Positions 52,072 to 59,200 of a DNA stretch of 64,000 bases are shown in pieces (position 1 is the stretch's first letter; every line of letters begins with the position of its first letter). A program made the position numbers and the translations under genes. The DNA is taken from NCBI RefSeq assembly GCF_900102915.1, contig NZ_FNGG01000002.1, positions 399,097 through 463,096 on the forward strand. The letters run 5' to 3'. Below the pieces are notes generated by a model. The model had not been told where the DNA came from. It did not search any database and worked only from the letters and a program-made list of their open reading frames with translations. This DNA is from Salinimicrobium catena. GTDB taxonomy: Bacteria > Bacteroidota > Bacteroidia > Flavobacteriales > Flavobacteriaceae.

Positions 52072-52086
52072 GATATTAGAGACCAT

Positions 52087-52113
52087 AAAAAACCCGGTTC
52101 GCCGGGTTTTTTT
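52087..52113 (+). terminator. Strong rho-independent terminator before the type III PKS operon
   Basis: AAAAAACCCGG (52087-52097), loop TTCG, CCGGGTTTTTT (52102-52112): a perfect 11-bp stem with a stable UUCG loop and a T run. It lies 15 bases after the OmpA stop and 12 bases before the GTG of the next gene. Confidence 0.9.
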
Positions 52114-52125
52114 ATACCCTAAAAA

Positions 52126-53256
52126 GTGGAAAGAGAAGAGGTGATCATCATTGGAGGCGGTCCGGCAGGCATGACGGCTGCCATTCATTTGGCCAAAAAT
52201 GGGATCAAAACCACTGTTTTTGAGAAGGAAACTTTTCCGCGTCACAAGGTCTGCGGGGAATATCTGTCAAAAGAAATTCTGCCATATTTTGGGGAGTTGG
52301 ATGTTAACCTAAACGATCTCAAGCCCAAAGATATTACCAGGATGAGATACAGCAGTCTTAACGGCCGCACTCTCTCTACTGAACTGCCCTTGGGCGGTTT
52401 GGGCGTTAGCCGTTACGGGCTGGATGATCTTCTATACCGCACAGCAGTTCGCTCAGGAGTAATTGTAAAAGAGGAAAAAGTATCGGCTGTTGATTTTTCT
52501 GATGATCATTTTATTGTCAATACATCAGAAAACACTTACAAAAGCCGCTTTGTTTTGGGGGCTTACGGCAAACGGGATCTTTTGGACAAGCAGCTGGGAA
52601 GGAGCTTTTTTCAAAAACCCGCGCCCTGGGTGGGCATTAAAAGCCATTATGAGAAAAATGATTTTCCCGATGATCTGGTAGAGTTGCACAATTTCAAGGG
52701 CGGTTATTGCGGCCTGTCAAAGACCGAAACCGGTGCGGTGAACGTCTGTTACCTGGCCACGTATAAAAGCTTCCGGAAAATGAAAGATCCAGAACTTTTT
52801 CGGGAAAAAGTGCTTCGGAAAAATCCTTTTTTGGACGAGTTCTTTTCCGAAGCCAAAGAGATATTTGAGAAGCCCATGAGCATTGCCCAGATCTCTTTTC
52901 GCCGGAAGGAGTCGGTGGAAAATCACATGCTAATGATAGGGGATACTGCCGGGCTTATTCATCCCCTATGCGGAAACGGAATGGCAATGGCTATACAAAG
53001 CGCCAGGATAGCTTCGGAAGTTATACTAAAACAAATCCAGCAAAAATCTCCGATTCGTGAGATGATGGAAAAGGAATACGAACAGCGATGGCAAAAGGAG
53101 TTCAACCGAAGATTAACAGCAGGAAGGTACCTTCAAAAAGTGCTTCTGAACGATACATTGTCGAACCTTTCGCAGAAAGCCTTGTTGAAAATGCCCTTTT
53201 TGCTTCCGAAGATCATCGAACAAACACATGGAAAGCCTCAAAAATTTCAGCAATGA
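52126..53256 (+). CDS. FAD-dependent oxidoreductase (monooxygenase / geranylgeranyl-reductase-like)
   Basis: A 376-residue flavoprotein. It has the FAD-binding GGGPAGMTAAIHLA at the N-terminus, the FPRHKVCGEYLS segment typical of the geranylgeranyl-reductase/halogenase-related group, and the second FAD motif IGDTAGLIHPLCGNGMA (about 270-285). No lysine-rich halogenase motif (WxWxIP) is seen. In the cluster it most likely hydroxylates or oxidises the aromatic ring, like SrsC; double-bond reduction is the alternative. Start is GTG 52126, only 12 bases after a terminator. Its stop overlaps the ATG of the methyltransferase (ATGA). Confidence 0.87.
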   Translation: MEREEVIIIGGGPAGMTAAIHLAKNGIKTTVFEKETFPRHKVCGEYLSKEILPYFGELDVNLNDLKPKDITRMRYSSLNGRTLSTELPLGGLGVSRYGLDDLLYRTAVRSGVIVKEEKVSAVDFSDDHFIVNTSENTYKSRFVLGAYGKRDLLDKQLGRSFFQKPAPWVGIKSHYEKNDFPDDLVELHNFKGGYCGLSKTETGAVNVCYLATYKSFRKMKDPELFREKVLRKNPFLDEFFSEAKEIFEKPMSIAQISFRRKESVENHMLMIGDTAGLIHPLCGNGMAMAIQSARIASEVILKQIQQKSPIREMMEKEYEQRWQKEFNRRLTAGRYLQKVLLNDTLSNLSQKALLKMPFLLPKIIEQTHGKPQKFQQ

Positions 53257-53957
53257 ACATTAAAACAAGAAGCAATCGAAAAGAGATCATGGATCACCAC
53301 GACCTGGACGGGGAGGAGCTGGAAAGGATCCTGGGCGAAGTAGAGGGGGTCAACCGTTTGCTTGGAGGGTATAAGGTGACCCTGGAAGGCATAGATAAGA
53401 TCCTGAAAAGTGGCTGTTACTCCCAGCCGGTGGAAATAATGGACGTTGGCTGCGGTAACGGGAATATGCTTCGGGAAGTGGCCAAAATAGGGCGCAGCAG
53501 GGGAATTCGCATGAAACTGATCGGGGTGGACATTAGTAATTCGACCATTGAAATAGCCCGAAAGGAATCTGTGGATTTTCCGGAAATATCCTTTGAGACA
53601 ATGGATGTGACTTCAAGAGATTTCGGGGAGAAGAAAACAGATATCATCCTTTGTACTCTTACGCTGCATCATTTCAAGGATAAGGAGATCGAAGACCTGA
53701 TGAAGGTTTTTGAAAAAGTATGTCAGATGGGTATCGTGATCAACGATCTCCACAGAAGCAGGCTAGCCTATCATCTTTTTAAGCTGTACTCAAATCTTTA
53801 TATGAAGAATGAGATCGCAAAAAAGGATGGTCTTACTTCCATTTTAAGGAGCTTTAGGAAGGAAGATCTCAAATGGTATGGCCGTAATCTAAAAGCGCGG
53901 AACCAGATGATCTCCTGGAAATGGGCTTTCAGGTATCAATGGGTGTTGTTAAAATAA
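53253..53957 (+). CDS. SAM-dependent methyltransferase of the type III PKS cluster
   Basis: A 234-residue class I methyltransferase: motif I MDVGCGNGNMLREVA (about 65-80), an acidic end of strand 2 (LIGVDISNST), and a later LCTLTLHHFKD motif. A C-terminal hydrophobic region (RSRLAYHLFKLYSNLYM) may bind a lipid-like substrate. The open frame extends to 53088 upstream, but ATG 53253 (MNIKTRSNRKE) overlaps the preceding stop by four bases and is the natural start. By context it methylates the ring or a phenolic oxygen of the PKS product, like SrsB (inference). Confidence 0.88.
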   Translation: MNIKTRSNRKEIMDHHDLDGEELERILGEVEGVNRLLGGYKVTLEGIDKILKSGCYSQPVEIMDVGCGNGNMLREVAKIGRSRGIRMKLIGVDISNSTIEIARKESVDFPEISFETMDVTSRDFGEKKTDIILCTLTLHHFKDKEIEDLMKVFEKVCQMGIVINDLHRSRLAYHLFKLYSNLYMKNEIAKKDGLTSILRSFRKEDLKWYGRNLKARNQMISWKWAFRYQWVLLK

Positions 53958-53967
53958 TAGATTTGGA

Positions 53968-55020
53968 ATGAGTGTAAGAATAAGAGCGGTTACAAAGCAA
54001 TTTCCGAAATATTCAAGGAAAACCACTGAGGTGATCCCGATGGTGGAGACCTGGCTCGACGGGCAGGAGGAGCGTTTCCGCAGAAAGGTCATCAAGATCT
54101 TTGAAGGCGCGGCTGTAGACAAGCGGTTTTCCATTATGCAGCCAGAGGAGGTTTTTACTGCGACTTCCTTTGAGGAAAAAAATAACATCTATGTTCGGGA
54201 AGTAAAGAAAATGGGAACCCAAGTGCTGCAAAAAGCTTTGCACAAAGCTGATTGGGATCCGGCTTCTTTGGATTACATCATAACGGTGAGTTGTACGGGA
54301 ATAATGATCCCGTCTTTGGATGCTTTCCTGATAAATGAACTGGGACTGTCCCAGGATGTAACGCGGCTACCGGTGACCGAAATGGGATGTGCCGCAGGAA
54401 TTTCGGGAATGATCTACGCCCATAATTTTTTAAAGGCCAATAAGAAAAAAAGAGCGGCCGTAGTGGCGGTGGAAAGCCCGACGGCTACTTTTCAGCTGAA
54501 CGATTTTTCTATGGCCAATATGGTGAGCGCTGCCATTTTTGGAGATGGCGCCGCCTGTGTGCTGCTTTCTTCTGAGGAAGAGGCTGAAGGCCCTGAGATA
54601 ATAGGAGAGGAGATGTACCATTTTTTTGATACCACCAGGCTCATGGGGTTCGATCTCACCAATTCGGGCCTGCAAATGGTGCTCGATCCTGCAGTGCCGC
54701 AAACCATTGCAGATCATTTTGAAAACATTGTTCATCCCTTTCTGCAAAAGAATAACAGCAGCATGGAACAGGTACAACATCTCATCTTTCATCCCGGAGG
54801 TAAGAAAATTATGCAAACAGTTGAAGATCTTTTTGGTAACTTAGGGAAGAACATAGATGACACCAAAGCCGTTTTGCGCGAGTATGGCAACATGAGCAGT
54901 GTTACTGTGCTGTACGTGCTTGAACGTTTTATGGAAAGAAATCCTCAAAAAGGAGAACAGGGGCTCATGTTGAGCTTTGGTCCCGGTTTTTCTGCACAAA
55001 AAATCTTATTGGAATGGTAA
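53968..55020 (+). CDS. Type III polyketide synthase (chalcone/stilbene synthase family)
   Basis: A 350-residue homodimer-forming synthase that extends an acyl starter with malonyl units and cyclises the product. The catalytic triad is visible: Cys141 in TEMGCAAG, His275 in LIFHPGGKK and Asn308 in YGNMSSVT. The ending GPGFSAQKILLEW matches the family's GFGPGL-type loop. Length is somewhat below plant enzymes (about 390), as usual for bacteria. Likely products are alkylresorcinols or alkylpyrones if the starter is a long acyl chain, which the linked FAS-like genes suggest. It starts 10 bases after the methyltransferase and overlaps the next gene by 7 bases. Confidence 0.94.
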   Translation: MSVRIRAVTKQFPKYSRKTTEVIPMVETWLDGQEERFRRKVIKIFEGAAVDKRFSIMQPEEVFTATSFEEKNNIYVREVKKMGTQVLQKALHKADWDPASLDYIITVSCTGIMIPSLDAFLINELGLSQDVTRLPVTEMGCAAGISGMIYAHNFLKANKKKRAAVVAVESPTATFQLNDFSMANMVSAAIFGDGAACVLLSSEEEAEGPEIIGEEMYHFFDTTRLMGFDLTNSGLQMVLDPAVPQTIADHFENIVHPFLQKNNSSMEQVQHLIFHPGGKKIMQTVEDLFGNLGKNIDDTKAVLREYGNMSSVTVLYVLERFMERNPQKGEQGLMLSFGPGFSAQKILLEW

Positions 55021-55808
55021 AAGACTTTGAGAACAAAGATTACTGGGCCCTCATCCTGGGTGGCAGCAGCGGACTGGGTTTTGCTTCGGCAAAAAAGCTT
55101 GCCGCGCACGGCATGAACGTGATCATCATCCATCGGGACAGAAAGGATGATCTTCCCGAGATCAGGGAATCCTTTGAAGAGATCCAGAAGCTGGGAGTGC
55201 AGATACACACTTTTAACGTCGATGCTACAAGAAAGGAAAAAAGAGAAGAAATGGCCCTGGAGATCAGGAACAGCCTTGGGGAAAAAGGAAAAATAAGGAC
55301 ACTTCTTCACAGTATTTCAAAGGGAAATCTGAAGTCTATGCTGGGAGAGGAACCCACTCTGAAAAATGATGATTTTCAGCAGACCATAGACGCCATGGCC
55401 ATTAGCCTGTATGACTGGACCAAGCTCATCTATAACACCGGAGTCTTCGCAAAAGATGCCCGAATTCTTTCTTTTACCAGTGAAGGAAATTCCAAGGCCT
55501 GGAAGGATTATGCCGCAGTTTCGGCCGCAAAGGTCGCTTTAGAAGCCATTACCCGAAGCATTGCCCTGGAGTTCGCCCCAAAAGGCATCAGGGCAAATTG
55601 TATTCAGGCGGGTGTGACCGTTACCCGTTCATTCCAGATGATTCCGGGTTATGAGACCCTGCGGGTGCATGCAGTGAAACGTAATCCATTCAAGAGGCTT
55701 ACCACGCCGGCCGATGTGGCCAACGCCGTCTACCTGCTTAGCAAGGACGAGGCGAGCTGGATCACAGGCACGATCATTCCTGTTAACGGAGGTGAACATT
55801 TAAAATAA
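55014..55808 (+). CDS. FabI/FabL-like enoyl-ACP reductase (SDR superfamily)
   Basis: A 264-residue short-chain dehydrogenase. The N-terminal cofactor loop is GGSSGLGFASAKKLA. The catalytic pair is Tyr166 and Lys173, spaced Y-x6-K (YAAVSAAK), which is the enoyl-ACP reductase spacing; ordinary SDR ketoreductases have Y-x3-K. The PVNGGEHLK end resembles FabI/FabL. An Arg-rich adenosine loop (HRDRKDD) hints at NADPH use, as in FabL. In the cluster it would reduce the enoyl group of the growing acyl chain. It overlaps the PKS gene by 7 bases. Confidence 0.87.
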   Translation: MVKDFENKDYWALILGGSSGLGFASAKKLAAHGMNVIIIHRDRKDDLPEIRESFEEIQKLGVQIHTFNVDATRKEKREEMALEIRNSLGEKGKIRTLLHSISKGNLKSMLGEEPTLKNDDFQQTIDAMAISLYDWTKLIYNTGVFAKDARILSFTSEGNSKAWKDYAAVSAAKVALEAITRSIALEFAPKGIRANCIQAGVTVTRSFQMIPGYETLRVHAVKRNPFKRLTTPADVANAVYLLSKDEASWITGTIIPVNGGEHLK

Positions 55809-55812
55809 AAAG

Positions 55813-56271
55813 ATGCAAGCTACCGAACTCATCGAAAAACTGCCTTATTCCTATCCATTCCTGTACGTGGACGATCTTGAAGAAATAGGGGAAGAGGGAA
55901 TTACCGGTCACTATACCTTTCCCGAAAGCGCTTTTTATTACCAGGGACATTTTAAGAACAATCCGGTGACCCCGGGCGTGATCCTGGCAGAATGTATGGC
56001 GCAGATAGGAGTTGTTTGTTTAGGGATCAACCTGCTGCAAAAAGGAAAAGAAGTGGAAGAGCCTGAAGAGGAGAAGGAACTGCAGATAGCGATGAGCAAT
56101 GTTGACGTGGACTTTTTTCTGCCGGTCTTTCCCGGGGAAAGAGTCACGGTCACTTCTAAAAAAGAATATTTCCGGTTCAATAAATTGAAATGTAATGTCA
56201 AAATGAGAAATGAGGAAGGCAAGCTGGTGTGCAAAGGAGAGATCTCAGGAATGATCGTGGAAGATGAGTAG
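55813..56271 (+). CDS. FabZ-like 3-hydroxyacyl-ACP dehydratase (hotdog fold)
   Basis: A 152-residue hotdog protein. The active-site block reads YYQGHFKNNPVTPGVILAECMAQ in parts: the His in GHF and the Glu in PGVILAE match FabZ/FabA catalytic residues. The N-terminal LPYSYPFLYVDDLEE also follows FabZ (LPHRYPFLLVD). An acidic insert (EVEEPEEEKE, about 78-87) is unusual. It should dehydrate 3-hydroxyacyl-ACP in the dedicated acyl-chain line of the cluster. The gene overlaps the ketosynthase start by 8 bases. Confidence 0.9.
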   Translation: MQATELIEKLPYSYPFLYVDDLEEIGEEGITGHYTFPESAFYYQGHFKNNPVTPGVILAECMAQIGVVCLGINLLQKGKEVEEPEEEKELQIAMSNVDVDFFLPVFPGERVTVTSKKEYFRFNKLKCNVKMRNEEGKLVCKGEISGMIVEDE

Positions 56272-57544
56272 GAGAGTGGTGGTCACAGGCATGGGAGTCG
56301 CCGCGCCAAACGGAGTGGGGCTTGCGGCTTTTGAAGAGGCCCTGAGGGAAGGAAAAAGCGGGATCAGGTTTCAGCCTGAACTCGAAAAGCTGAACTTCAG
56401 TTGCCAGATCGCCGGGAAACCTGAAGTTTCCGAAGAATTACTAAAGCGATATTTTACTCCTCTTGAATTGAAAGGCCTAAACAGCAGCGGGATCTTTTAT
56501 GGCGTGATAGCAGGGATGGATGCCTGGAAAGACGCGGGACTGGATGCTGGAAACGAACAGGAAACCGACTGGGACAGCGGGATCATCTTTGGCACCGGAA
56601 TACTTGGTGTGGACAAATTTAGAGAAGCCATTCATTTGATCGATGAAGGCAGGGTACGCCGCCTGGGAAGCACCGGGGTGACGCAAACCATGGCCAGTGG
56701 GATAAGCGCTTTCCTGAACAGCAAGCTGGGCTGCGGCAATATGGTGAGCACAAATTCATCGGCCTGTACTACAGGTACCGAAGCTGTGATCATGGCTTAC
56801 GAACGGATCAAGTCGGGGCAGGCAAAAAGAATGCTCGCCGGCAGCTGCAGTGACAGCGGACCTTATATATGGGGAGGATTTGACGCCATGCGCATTTTGC
56901 CGCATCAATATAATGACAGCCCACAGGAAGGTTCAAGGCCAATGAGCGCCACGGCGGCAGGATTTGTGCCGGGGAGCGGAGCAGGGGCTTTAATGCTTGA
57001 AGACCTGGAATCGGCCAGAGAAAGAGGGGCAAAGATCTATGCCGAAGTACTTGGCGGGCACGTAAACAGCGGCGGGCAAAGGACCGGTGGAAGCATGACC
57101 GCTCCAAATTCTTTGGGAGTGCAGAAGTGCATTATAAAAGCTCTTGAAGATTCGAAGGTGCATCCGGAAGAGATCGATGCCATCAACGGCCATCTAACGG
57201 CAACCGCGATGGATGCTAAAGAAATGGAGAACTGGACTTCGGCCTTAAATAGAAAGGGTGAGGATTTTCCCATGATCAATAGCTTTAAAGGACTGACAGG
57301 GCACTGCCTTAGCGCCGCCGGCAGCATTGAATGTGTGGCAAGCGTACTTCAGGTAAAGAAGGATCTTGTTTTTGGGAATGTTAACAGCGAAGACCTGCAT
57401 CCGGATATTGAAAAGCAGGTCTCCCGGGACAGAATTCCGCAGAAGACCAAAGAACATCAGGTAAAAACTTTGATCAAGGCCAGTTTTGGTTTTGGAGACG
57501 TTAATGCGGTTGTCATATTCAGGAAACAAAAAAATGAACTATAA
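56264..57544 (+). CDS. FabF-like beta-ketoacyl-ACP synthase
   Basis: A 426-residue thiolase-fold ketosynthase. Catalytic Cys168 lies in NSSACTTGTEA. Two active-site His residues follow in NGHLTATAMD and KGLTGHCLSAAGS, so condensation activity should be intact. The first His motif deviates from the usual HGTGT (here HLTAT), which marks it as a specialised paralogue and not the housekeeping FabF. It would extend the acyl starter for the type III PKS. The ACP gene follows after 9 bases. Confidence 0.92.
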   Translation: MSRRVVVTGMGVAAPNGVGLAAFEEALREGKSGIRFQPELEKLNFSCQIAGKPEVSEELLKRYFTPLELKGLNSSGIFYGVIAGMDAWKDAGLDAGNEQETDWDSGIIFGTGILGVDKFREAIHLIDEGRVRRLGSTGVTQTMASGISAFLNSKLGCGNMVSTNSSACTTGTEAVIMAYERIKSGQAKRMLAGSCSDSGPYIWGGFDAMRILPHQYNDSPQEGSRPMSATAAGFVPGSGAGALMLEDLESARERGAKIYAEVLGGHVNSGGQRTGGSMTAPNSLGVQKCIIKALEDSKVHPEEIDAINGHLTATAMDAKEMENWTSALNRKGEDFPMINSFKGLTGHCLSAAGSIECVASVLQVKKDLVFGNVNSEDLHPDIEKQVSRDRIPQKTKEHQVKTLIKASFGFGDVNAVVIFRKQKNEL

Positions 57545-57553
57545 TTTTTAGTT

Positions 57554-57814
57554 ATGGAAACAAACGAAATTATTTACTGCCTTAAAAAGATCGTGAAGCC
57601 TTATGTGCAGAATGATCTTGCATTTCAGGATTTCAACATCAAAACTGATTTTACCCGGGACCTGGAGATCAATTCGGCGCACCTGGTAGATATAGTGCTT
57701 GATGTGGAAGATGAGTTCAATATTGCCATAGATAACCAGGCCATGGAAAACATGATGACCGTGGGAGATGCGGTGAAAATCATCAAAAAGAAACAGGTTA
57801 ACCATGATAGGTAA
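57554..57814 (+). CDS. Acyl carrier protein of the type III PKS cluster
   Basis: An 86-residue four-helix carrier protein. The phosphopantetheine site is Ser42 or so in LEINSAHLVDIVLDVEDEF: the usual Asp-Ser-Leu is Asn-Ser-Ala here. The acidic helix II after it (VDIVLDVEDEF) is typical for docking with partner enzymes. The altered motif and location mark it as a dedicated carrier, probably for the acyl starter. The 3' end overlaps the phosphopantetheinyl transferase gene by 11 bases, which suggests matched production. Confidence 0.92.
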   Translation: METNEIIYCLKKIVKPYVQNDLAFQDFNIKTDFTRDLEINSAHLVDIVLDVEDEFNIAIDNQAMENMMTVGDAVKIIKKKQVNHDR

Positions 57815-58385
57815 TGACGTGGTGGACCTAAAGGCTGCAGCAGCAGAAAGCGACTGGAGCCGAAAAGGTTTTCTGGAAAAGGTCTTTTCAGAAGAGGAGC
57901 GGGAGCTAATCTGCGCAGCTGCGGATCAGCATCAAATGGTGTGGCTGTTGTGGAGCATGAAAGAGGCAGCCTATAAGGCCCGGCAGCGGCATTTCAACCT
58001 GCCCAGGCGCCTAAACTGGCAACTGCTTCACTGTAATCTTGAAGAAATTAGCACGGGAAAAGCTTCAGGCGTGGTAAAAGTAGGTGCGGAGAAATATTTT
58101 ACTGCTTCAGGGATCACTTCAGAAAACATTCATACCACCGCAAGACCCAATTCCAAAATACCTCTCGAAAATTTCATTTTCGAGACCTCTTCCGCAGCAG
58201 CAAAAAATAAGCTTCTGCAGCAAACAGCTGATTTCCATTTCCTTCCTGTCGCCGATCTTCACTTCAGAAAAGATCTTCACGGCGTGCCCTATATCTCCTA
58301 CAAAAACGCTGAATTCTTCAACAGATTTTCCTTCTCAGACCATGGCAGGTATTCCGCTTTTTCTCTCTCGTTAAGAATCTCCTAA
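57804..58385 (+). CDS. 4'-phosphopantetheinyl transferase superfamily protein
   Basis: A 193-residue enzyme that moves phosphopantetheine from CoA to the Ser of a carrier protein. It has the metal-binding IGNDVVDL motif at the N-terminus and the WSMKEAAYKARQRH helix (WxxKEA), both needed for catalysis. The length lies between AcpS (about 125) and Sfp (about 225). It overlaps the ACP gene and is most likely its activator. It is the last gene of the cluster; the next gene has its own promoter. Confidence 0.9.
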   Translation: MIGNDVVDLKAAAAESDWSRKGFLEKVFSEEERELICAAADQHQMVWLLWSMKEAAYKARQRHFNLPRRLNWQLLHCNLEEISTGKASGVVKVGAEKYFTASGITSENIHTTARPNSKIPLENFIFETSSAAAKNKLLQQTADFHFLPVADLHFRKDLHGVPYISYKNAEFFNRFSFSDHGRYSAFSLSLRIS

Positions 58386-58465: not shown

Positions 58466-59200
58466 ATGAAGTCCATTGATAAGAAAGAAGTGATTAGCAG
58501 CCAGTCGGCTGAGTTTATTAAGCAAGGTGAAGAAGGGAAGTTCCTAAAAATGGTTTCAGACACGTTTATCATCAAGACCGCGAACGGAACTCAGGGATAC
58601 GCTATAAGGCATTTGAACATGCACGATATGCTCCTGATTGATACCACAGGGGAGGGAGCCAAAGACGCGATCAAGCACCTGGTCGAGGAAGGATATAAGA
58701 TCAGTGCCATATTAATTACCAATAAGGAGGCGTTGAGAAACACCTATGCTTCCCTTAAGGAGATCTCACAGGATGCGGGCGGAGCTCCTATTTACAGTCA
58801 CCCCATGAATAACAGCGATTCATCTTTTGAGGTGAAGGACATCAATACAAAGAACAAGATCTTTGACCATTTTTCTATAAGTGTAGATGATTTTCCATCT
58901 GCTTCGGGCGAGAACTCTGTGATCTATTGCGATATCAATGAAGGGATGGTCTTTGCCGGGAATAGCGCTATTGGTGCTTCTTATGATGAGGATGGAGACA
59001 CGATAACCAGACCTGACCTAAAAAGCGAGAACAAAAATTTGAGCCTGGCCGAAAGCTGGAGAACCTATATCAGGGAATTCAGATATCTCTTTCCATACAA
59101 AGGAAAACCAAAGTTCAACCTTGAGGAAGGGGAGCAGACAGATCTGATCCAAAAGCTGGGCAGCACAAGTTACCCCGGGGGTGGAAATCCGAATCTGTAA
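58466..59200 (+). CDS. Possible degenerate MBL-fold protein
   Basis: A 244-residue protein, probably cytosolic, with no confident family. Order and spacing of some segments resemble a metallo-beta-lactamase fold: a HDMLLIDTTGEGA strand-turn, then GYKISAILITNKEALRN where HxHxDH would sit, GAPIYSHP, and a later strand EGMVFAGNSAIG in the GDTLF position. The metal-binding His cluster is not seen (NKEALR instead), so if the fold is right, hydrolase activity is probably lost. It has a promoter of its own after the PKS cluster, so a link to that pathway is uncertain. Confidence 0.6.
   Translation: MKSIDKKEVISSQSAEFIKQGEEGKFLKMVSDTFIIKTANGTQGYAIRHLNMHDMLLIDTTGEGAKDAIKHLVEEGYKISAILITNKEALRNTYASLKEISQDAGGAPIYSHPMNNSDSSFEVKDINTKNKIFDHFSISVDDFPSASGENSVIYCDINEGMVFAGNSAIGASYDEDGDTITRPDLKSENKNLSLAESWRTYIREFRYLFPYKGKPKFNLEEGEQTDLIQKLGSTSYPGGGNPNL

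Follow-up and report, generated by a model that had tools for sequence, protein, structure and literature searches.

A type III polyketide synthase operon of Salinimicrobium catena with its own ketosynthase, dehydratase, and acyl carrier protein genes

Eight genes at the locus

The window analyzed here is a 64,000-nucleotide (nt) stretch of the Salinimicrobium catena genome (contig NZ_FNGG01000002.1, positions 399,097 to 463,096), and our subject is a run of eight co-directional plus-strand genes at its positions 52126 to 58385. In order, they encode a flavin adenine dinucleotide (FAD)-dependent flavoprotein, a methyltransferase (MT), a type III polyketide synthase (PKS), a short-chain dehydrogenase/reductase (SDR), a dehydratase (DH), a ketosynthase (KS), an acyl carrier protein (ACP), and a 4'-phosphopantetheinyl transferase (PPTase) (Table 1). 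The original prediction, made from the DNA letters and their open reading frames (ORFs), described eight overlapping genes here. Their number, strand, and coordinates are confirmed, and the description as overlapping is nearly right: four junctions do overlap (FAD/MT by 4 nt, PKS/SDR by 7, DH/KS by 8, and ACP/PPTase by 11), while the other three are gaps of 4 to 10 nt. The MT gene almost certainly starts at 53253, as opposed to the first ATG of its frame at 53088 (the listed ORF start), because the ATG there overlaps the flavoprotein stop codon (ATGA) and the median MT homolog is 237 amino acids (aa) long.

Table 1. Genes of the operon, with window coordinates and profile scores (SAM, S-adenosylmethionine)
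Product	Position	Strand	Length (aa)	Features
FAD-dependent group-A monooxygenase-like flavoprotein; predicted aromatic hydroxylase	52126..53256	+	376	
Class I SAM methyltransferase (MT)	53253..53957	+	234	Top NCBIfam PRK06202 (NF004851), 136.6 bits, cut-off 243
Type III polyketide synthase (PKS)	53968..55020	+	350	Triad C141/H275/N308; F228 where most relatives have W
SDR, FabL-type enoyl-ACP reductase by similarity; accessory member	55014..55808	+	264	Y166-x6-K173; top NCBIfam FabL, 136.4 bits, cut-off 328
FabZ-type 3-hydroxyacyl-ACP dehydratase (DH)	55813..56271	+	152	PF07977 above cut-off; FabZ NF000582, 66.7 bits, cut-off 113
FabF-type ketosynthase (KS)	56264..57544	+	426	C168/H310/H347; GFGDVN and GHLTAT motifs; TIGR03150, 276.3 bits, cut-off 493.75
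Acyl carrier protein (ACP)	57554..57814	+	86	Serine in INSAHL; NCBIfam ACP models at most 45.8 bits, below cut-offs; PF00550, 20.3 bits, cut-off 20.8
4'-Phosphopantetheinyl transferase superfamily protein (PPTase); accessory member	57804..58385	+	193	PF01648 above cut-off

Pfam and NCBIfam back the family of each of the eight genes. The top NCBIfam score nevertheless falls below the curated cut-off for all eight proteins, and the Pfam score of the ACP is also slightly below its cut-off, so none is a named equivalog and each is a divergent member of its family. The catalytic machinery is well conserved. In orthologue alignments that include the window, the PKS triad is invariant across 79 sequences, the KS Cys-His-His residues across 73, and the Y-x6-K motif of the SDR across 56. 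Also, the ACP serine motif is present in 66/66 orthologues, the PPTase motif W..KE..YK in 50/50, and the FabZ-type motif GHF...P..PG....E of the DH, with its His and Glu, in 71/75; the unusual KS motifs GFGD.N and GH.T.T recur in 73/73. The earlier view that the active sites of the PKS, KS, reductase, and transferase are intact is thus borne out.

Several assignments deserve comment. The PKS has the Cys-His-Asn triad, thiolase-fold chain, and length (350 to 400 aa) that define type III enzymes, and its nearest solved structures by fold match are Pks11 and CylI. Its best NCBIfam match is DpgA, the 3,5-dihydroxyphenylacetyl-CoA (coenzyme A) synthase (NF042429), at 176.1 bits against a cut-off of 425; Pfam and NCBIfam find no DpgBCD-type proteins among the eight genes, and we do not regard the enzyme as a DpgA. 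THNS is among its best PDB sequence matches. For the SDR, the sole PDB sequence match at E<=1e-20 is FabL (3oic); FabL is its best match in both NCBIfam and PDB and the Y-x6-K motif is present, but the score of 136 bits is well under the family cut-off. The flavoprotein is placed by Pfam and NCBIfam in the geranylgeranyl-reductase/monooxygenase superfamily. Its list of fold matches is headed by halogenases, and a GGYxGxS motif is found in 74/74 orthologues. The hallmark of flavin-dependent halogenases is a WxWxIP motif, which occurs in 0/74 orthologues, and the flavoprotein was rejected as a halogenase.

Distribution and linkage within and beyond Bacteroidota

A scan of genome contigs confirmed 123 PKS loci, of which the best 80 were named; 64 of these have enough flanking sequence for gene content to be judged. 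The 80 loci share 67 to 82% PKS identity and come from Salinimicrobium, Gillisia, Gramella, Polaribacter, Flavobacterium, Kaistella, Pedobacter, Chitinophaga, Dyadobacter, and other genera; the closest among them is from Salinimicrobium nanhaiense. The original prediction had proposed a search of Bacteroidota for the same gene order, and that order indeed recurs in many genera (Salinimicrobium, Gillisia, Polaribacter, Flavobacterium, Pedobacter, Chitinophaga, and others), with a rearranged form in Dyadobacter. In a sample of 299 genomes of the window's family, the window included, the PKS (called at E below 1e-100) is present in 103. At E 1e-10, 145 genomes matched; besides the 103, the matches listed comprise one of 31% identity (G072) and others of about 22 to 28%, which are presumably FabH-type. 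In one genome (G150:C1:841123-842162), the PKS match consists of two adjacent pieces in different frames, which reflects either disruption of the gene or an error in sequencing.

Across a phylum sample of 395 genomes, 95 match the PKS at 1e-40, 33 of them at 67 to 100% identity and the other 62 at no more than 37%, with none between; this gap indicates that the operon PKSs form one tight clade. The distant Bacteroidota type III PKSs (30 to 37% identity) were considered as parts of the same system and rejected, since none of the 20 regions around them, some cut by contig ends, has a profile match to the FAD, MT, DH, KS, ACP, or PPTase gene; one has a weak SDR match (L151). Inside the family, the PKS is less conserved than the FabF-type KS, while three genomes of two other families are 70, 71, and 69% identical to the window in the PKS and 71, 71, and 66% in the FabF-type KS. 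For instance, G536, from another family, has 69% PKS and 66% FabF identity, compared with 58% and 86% in G191, from the same family. PKS identity is nearly flat from family to class as FabF-type KS identity drops, a pattern that suggests some horizontal spread of the operon inside Bacteroidota.

The linkage of KS to PKS is near-obligate. KS orthologues, called at E up to 1e-110, occur in 101/299 family genomes, all of which also carry the PKS, and in 97 of these 101 genomes the two genes share a strand and are no more than 5.4 kb apart. Among the 64 judged loci, MT and PKS are present in all, DH, KS, and ACP in 63 each, the flavoprotein in 62, PPTase in 49, and SDR in 45; all eight genes occur together in 30, and a set of six (FAD, MT, PKS, DH, KS, and ACP) is complete in 61. 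This pattern of presence argues for a six-gene core, with SDR and PPTase outside it. For each partner gene, distances correlate with those of the PKS (Mantel r 0.68 to 0.89, 48 to 77 loci, 0/999 permutations each), as expected for a linked block, which alone is no proof of joint function.

The SDR was counted by the original prediction as a full member of the operon. It is indeed found there, but its presence is not bound to that of the PKS: 94 of the 96 family genomes with the SDR carry the PKS, two do not, and nine PKS-bearing genomes lack the SDR. In those two genomes, both of genus g31 (L187:8860-9654 in G257 and L188:8157-8951 in G031), the operon has been lost and an intact SDR gene stands between ompA-type and aconitase-type genes, the other operon genes being gone except for a 75-aa PPTase remnant in L187. 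The two g31 SDRs are 76.5% identical, with a nonsynonymous divergence (dN) of 0.16 and saturated synonymous sites. Selection therefore appears to have maintained the gene in the absence of the PKS. Conversely, the SDR stays beside the PKS in three genomes where the KS has moved off (G144, G190, and G276; loci L190, L192, and L194). In five Polaribacter loci, the slot held elsewhere by the SDR contains a 187-aa ORF (cluster c42, e.g., L062:11114-11677) that by eye resembles a REP-type transposase.

Elsewhere in its genome, S. catena has a separate FabF-type KS beside an ACP frame (L159), to which the operon KS is 34% identical, a second FabA/FabZ-family match in a 468-aa frame (L185) that is presumably LpxC-FabZ, a FabG-like SDR recognized by eye (L178), and a second PPTase (L165). 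In view of these, the genes of the operon are second copies. A further gene (C14:94947-95714) is 28% identical to Escherichia coli FabI, an identity that rests on similarity only, and the operon SDR was accordingly rejected as the cell's sole enoyl reductase. FabI-like genes of 27 to 30% identity occur in 8/10 genomes tested, including this one and both g31 genomes; no match above threshold was found in G177 and G157. Taken with the co-occurrence of KS and PKS (101/103 and 101/101) and the correlated distances, these additional copies uphold the earlier proposal linking the KS, DH, and ACP genes to the type III PKS.

Distant homologs of the PKS, MT, and flavoprotein are also grouped together in Proteobacteria and Deinococcus. 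We opened 11 plasmid regions picked from match lists of 177, 405, and 60 records. PKS, MT, and flavoprotein genes lie near each other in eight of them (Psychrobacter, Falsirhodobacter, Novosphingobium, Deinococcus, Roseomonas, two Sphingobium, and Paracoccus); two Bacteroidota regions (Bernardetia and Hymenobacter) have a flavoprotein homolog alone, and the remaining record is nearly unannotated. In the first five, identity to the window proteins is 26 to 32% for MT, 22 to 30% for the flavoprotein, and 26 to 30% for PKS; the trios of both Sphingobium and of Paracoccus were assigned from tblastn matches and annotation. The MT and flavoprotein of Sphingobium yanoikuyae share their best NCBIfam models with those of the window. 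Plasmid pKN1 of this species carries ACP-KS-PKS-MT-FAD in one run, and pLA3 of Novosphingobium US6-1 carries ACP-KS-PKS-FAD with MT beside it and a PKS 26% identical to the window's. Both resemble the operon in having ACP and KS directly upstream of PKS, with MT and flavoprotein at hand, but no DH, SDR, or PPTase is annotated in these runs. Moreover, the sphingomonad KSs are 24 to 28% identical to the window's KS and 34 to 36% identical to the other FabF-type KS of its genome; KS and ACP thus appear to have been recruited separately, twice, beside a type III PKS trio. In a midpoint-rooted PKS tree, the operon PKSs are monophyletic, though with a node support of only 0.456, and separate from the trio PKSs of Proteobacteria and Deinococcus (0.805).

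Proposed pathway and alternatives

On balance, we favor the reading that the operon encodes a lipid-polyketide pathway, in which an acyl starter carried on the ACP is finished by the PKS into a tailored alkylphenol or quinone lipid. A private acyl-ACP starter would be the simplest account of the gene set, and it has enzymatic precedents. The PPTase would activate the private ACP, on which the divergent KS and DH would extend or tailor an acyl chain drawn from primary fatty-acid synthesis; reductions would fall to a housekeeping ketoreductase (FabG) and to either the SDR or a housekeeping enoyl reductase. The PKS would then load the acyl group on C141, add malonyl units, and close an aromatic ring, most likely that of an alkylresorcinol. 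Finally, the MT and flavoprotein would methylate and hydroxylate the ring, so that the lipid ends as a methylated alkylphenol, hydroquinone, or quinone.

A number of observations weigh against this reading. According to Pfam and NCBIfam, the eight genes include no ketoreductase, ketoacyl-ACP synthase III (KAS III), or malonyl transferase, so the pathway, if it builds a chain, must lean on primary fatty-acid synthesis. The self-contained pathway of the original prediction is not supported in that form: besides these gaps, the SDR is not bound to the PKS and the PPTase is missing from 15/64 loci. The SDR is absent from 19/64 loci and persists in two genomes that have no PKS. Two genomes (G138 and the incomplete G293) have the PKS without the KS, and in 4/101 the two genes are apart (G276, G190, G144, and G066, the last a fragmented assembly). 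The Pedobacter locus L098 has FAD-MT-PKS only within its 21 kb, and no flavoprotein homolog was found within the 21 kb of Dyadobacter loci L067 and L075. The PKS and the KS block could serve different parts of one product. Also, Pks11, the best structural match of the PKS, makes pyrones according to its structure title, which weighs against a firm choice of ring type, and the column of F228 holds W in 26 of 27 other bacterial PKSs compared and Y in the remaining one.

F228 itself is present in 79/79 operon PKSs. At its column, Pks11 has W, CylI has L, and THNS has Y, and the PKS model has a predicted local distance difference test score (pLDDT) below 50 at residues 224 to 230 and 233 to 238. 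From our own alignment and chalcone-synthase numbering, we take F228 to be the probable equivalent of ArsB W281. In ArsB, W281 decides between resorcinol and pyrone, according to the cited account (PMC6274091). A prediction of ring type from F228 was dropped: the equivalence of position depends on that alignment and numbering, Pks11 has W where CylI has L, and pLDDT is low around the residue. F228 marks a changed PKS pocket without settling resorcinol versus pyrone.

Flexirubin-type esters are a model for a product made of two halves. Along these lines, the KS, DH, ACP, and perhaps SDR would build a separate acyl chain, possibly unsaturated, and the PKS would use an ordinary acyl-CoA starter to make an aromatic head; the two halves would be linked afterward. 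We consider this unlikely. It would fit the separation of DH-KS-ACP from FAD-MT-PKS-SDR in G190, G144, and G276, the two Dyadobacter loci, in which an SDR-DH-KS-ACP-PPTase run is divergent from MT-PKS, and the dispensable SDR, which would suit an unsaturated chain. However, no recurrent family of joining genes lies inside the operon, the sole recurrent insert being the transposase-like c42, and both sphingomonad runs place ACP and KS directly upstream of PKS, as a donor of the starter would predict. Less probable still is priming of the PKS by malonyl-CoA or another small unit, in the manner of DpgA or THNS, with KS, DH, and ACP acting downstream, either on the resulting polyketide or on a different small molecule; the DpgA profile match, the THNS sequence match, and the tyrosine of THNS at the F228 column speak for it.

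A proposal of another kind, and one with a substantial though less than even chance, is that the SDR, perhaps with the PPTase, is a general fatty-acid or carrier-protein gene lodged in the operon and that the pathway is the six-gene core. The frequent absence of both genes and the retention of a diverged SDR alone at the same site in the g31 genomes point this way, but the SDR adjoins the PKS even where the KS has moved off and is found in 94/103 PKS-bearing family genomes. The lodging of these genes is compatible with the ACP-fed lipid pathway that we favor and alters its scope only.

The flanks add several observations. An ORF downstream (58466-59200, 244 aa) has no Pfam or NCBIfam match and by eye resembles a metallo-beta-lactamase; it was rejected as a ninth member, its family occurring in 15/80 loci, those of the closest relatives with their ompA-type chromosomal context. 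Immediately ahead of the flavoprotein start codon (window 52072-52126) is a terminator-like hairpin with a T-run. A simple stem test finds a hairpin in 23/28 intergenic stretches between ompA and the flavoprotein gene, and in 22 of these 23 the T-run ends 9 to 27 nt before the start. The operon transcript may be leaderless, or there may be read-through from ompA. Not far from the operon, at distances of a few kb and in varied arrangements, a gene for a YceI-type lipid-binding protein recurs (L046:14296-14811; cluster c18, 18 loci). A lipid/isoprenoid-binding gene is likewise described beside a type III PKS of 'Saltatorellus ferox' (PMC10896814).

With about a third of sampled family genomes carrying the PKS, the operon is no singular find. 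If the proposed pathway is true, an uncharacterized phenolic or quinone lipid is produced in a large proportion of Bacteroidota from sea and soil, and ACP-to-type-III-PKS handover, known from few systems, is a common strategy with a compact gene set. More doubtful is the wider picture, in which a class of lipid common in Bacteroidota, either quinone or alkylphenol, is made by a type III PKS from a private-ACP starter; it would have spread by descent and probably some transfer and would have a membrane or redox role as opposed to one in antibiosis, with a parallel arrangement evolved in sphingomonads.

Comparison with known systems

In the window, the PKS, MT, and flavoprotein genes are three adjacent genes of one operon, an arrangement that the original prediction called srsABC-like. 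As a set of activities, this likeness stands; the sequence homology seen is remote and to the Proteobacteria/Deinococcus trios, and SrsB and SrsC were likened by activity only. The pkqABC genes of Mycobacterium and Streptomyces, which make polyketide quinones, and srsABC have the same three activities as the window trio (PMC9927152). The pkqABC product is a quinone lipid able to carry electrons; in the cited account, pkqABC is a three-gene machinery without private fatty-acid genes, and its substrates are acetyl-, malonyl-, and methylmalonyl-CoA (PMC9927152). Likewise, cyanobacterial hidABC and a trio in Planctomycetota combine a type III PKS, a methyltransferase, and an oxidoreductase in one operon that is widespread in a phylum, and planctomycete type III PKSs yielded alkylresorcinols in a heterologous host (PMC10896814, PMC8086630). 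As described there, these trios come without KS, DH, enoyl reductase, ACP, or PPTase; they were likened to the window by description, not sequence.

Precedents for the ACP-borne starter come from systems that encode a dedicated ACP and chain-building enzymes with the PKS, as this operon does (DH, KS, and ACP each at 63/64 loci). In arsABCD of Azotobacter, a dedicated fatty-acid synthase passes ACP-bound acyl chains directly to the PKSs ArsB and ArsC (PMC6274091). That synthase is described as a type I multidomain enzyme, whereas the operon has discrete KS, DH, SDR, and ACP. In the cylindrocyclophane cluster (CylB ACP, CylD/H, and CylI), a chain is carried on a free ACP and a resorcinol is made by the type III PKS CylI, a resorcinol synthase (PMC8086630). 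There, by the same account, the chain is extended by type I PKSs, and halogenation and dimerization take the place of MT and flavoprotein. The koreenceine cluster was set aside, being a type II PKS system of Pseudomonas.

Type III PKS clusters have been counted with antiSMASH in Flavobacteriaceae (PMC7440613, PMC7477175, PMC12843772) and in Fulvivirga (PMC12565237), in accounts that, as cited, do not describe this gene set. The original prediction did not recognize the full set as characterized, and we likewise found neither a product nor a description of all eight genes in the open-access literature. Individually, trio clusters, quinone products, and type III PKSs fed by an ACP have all been described.

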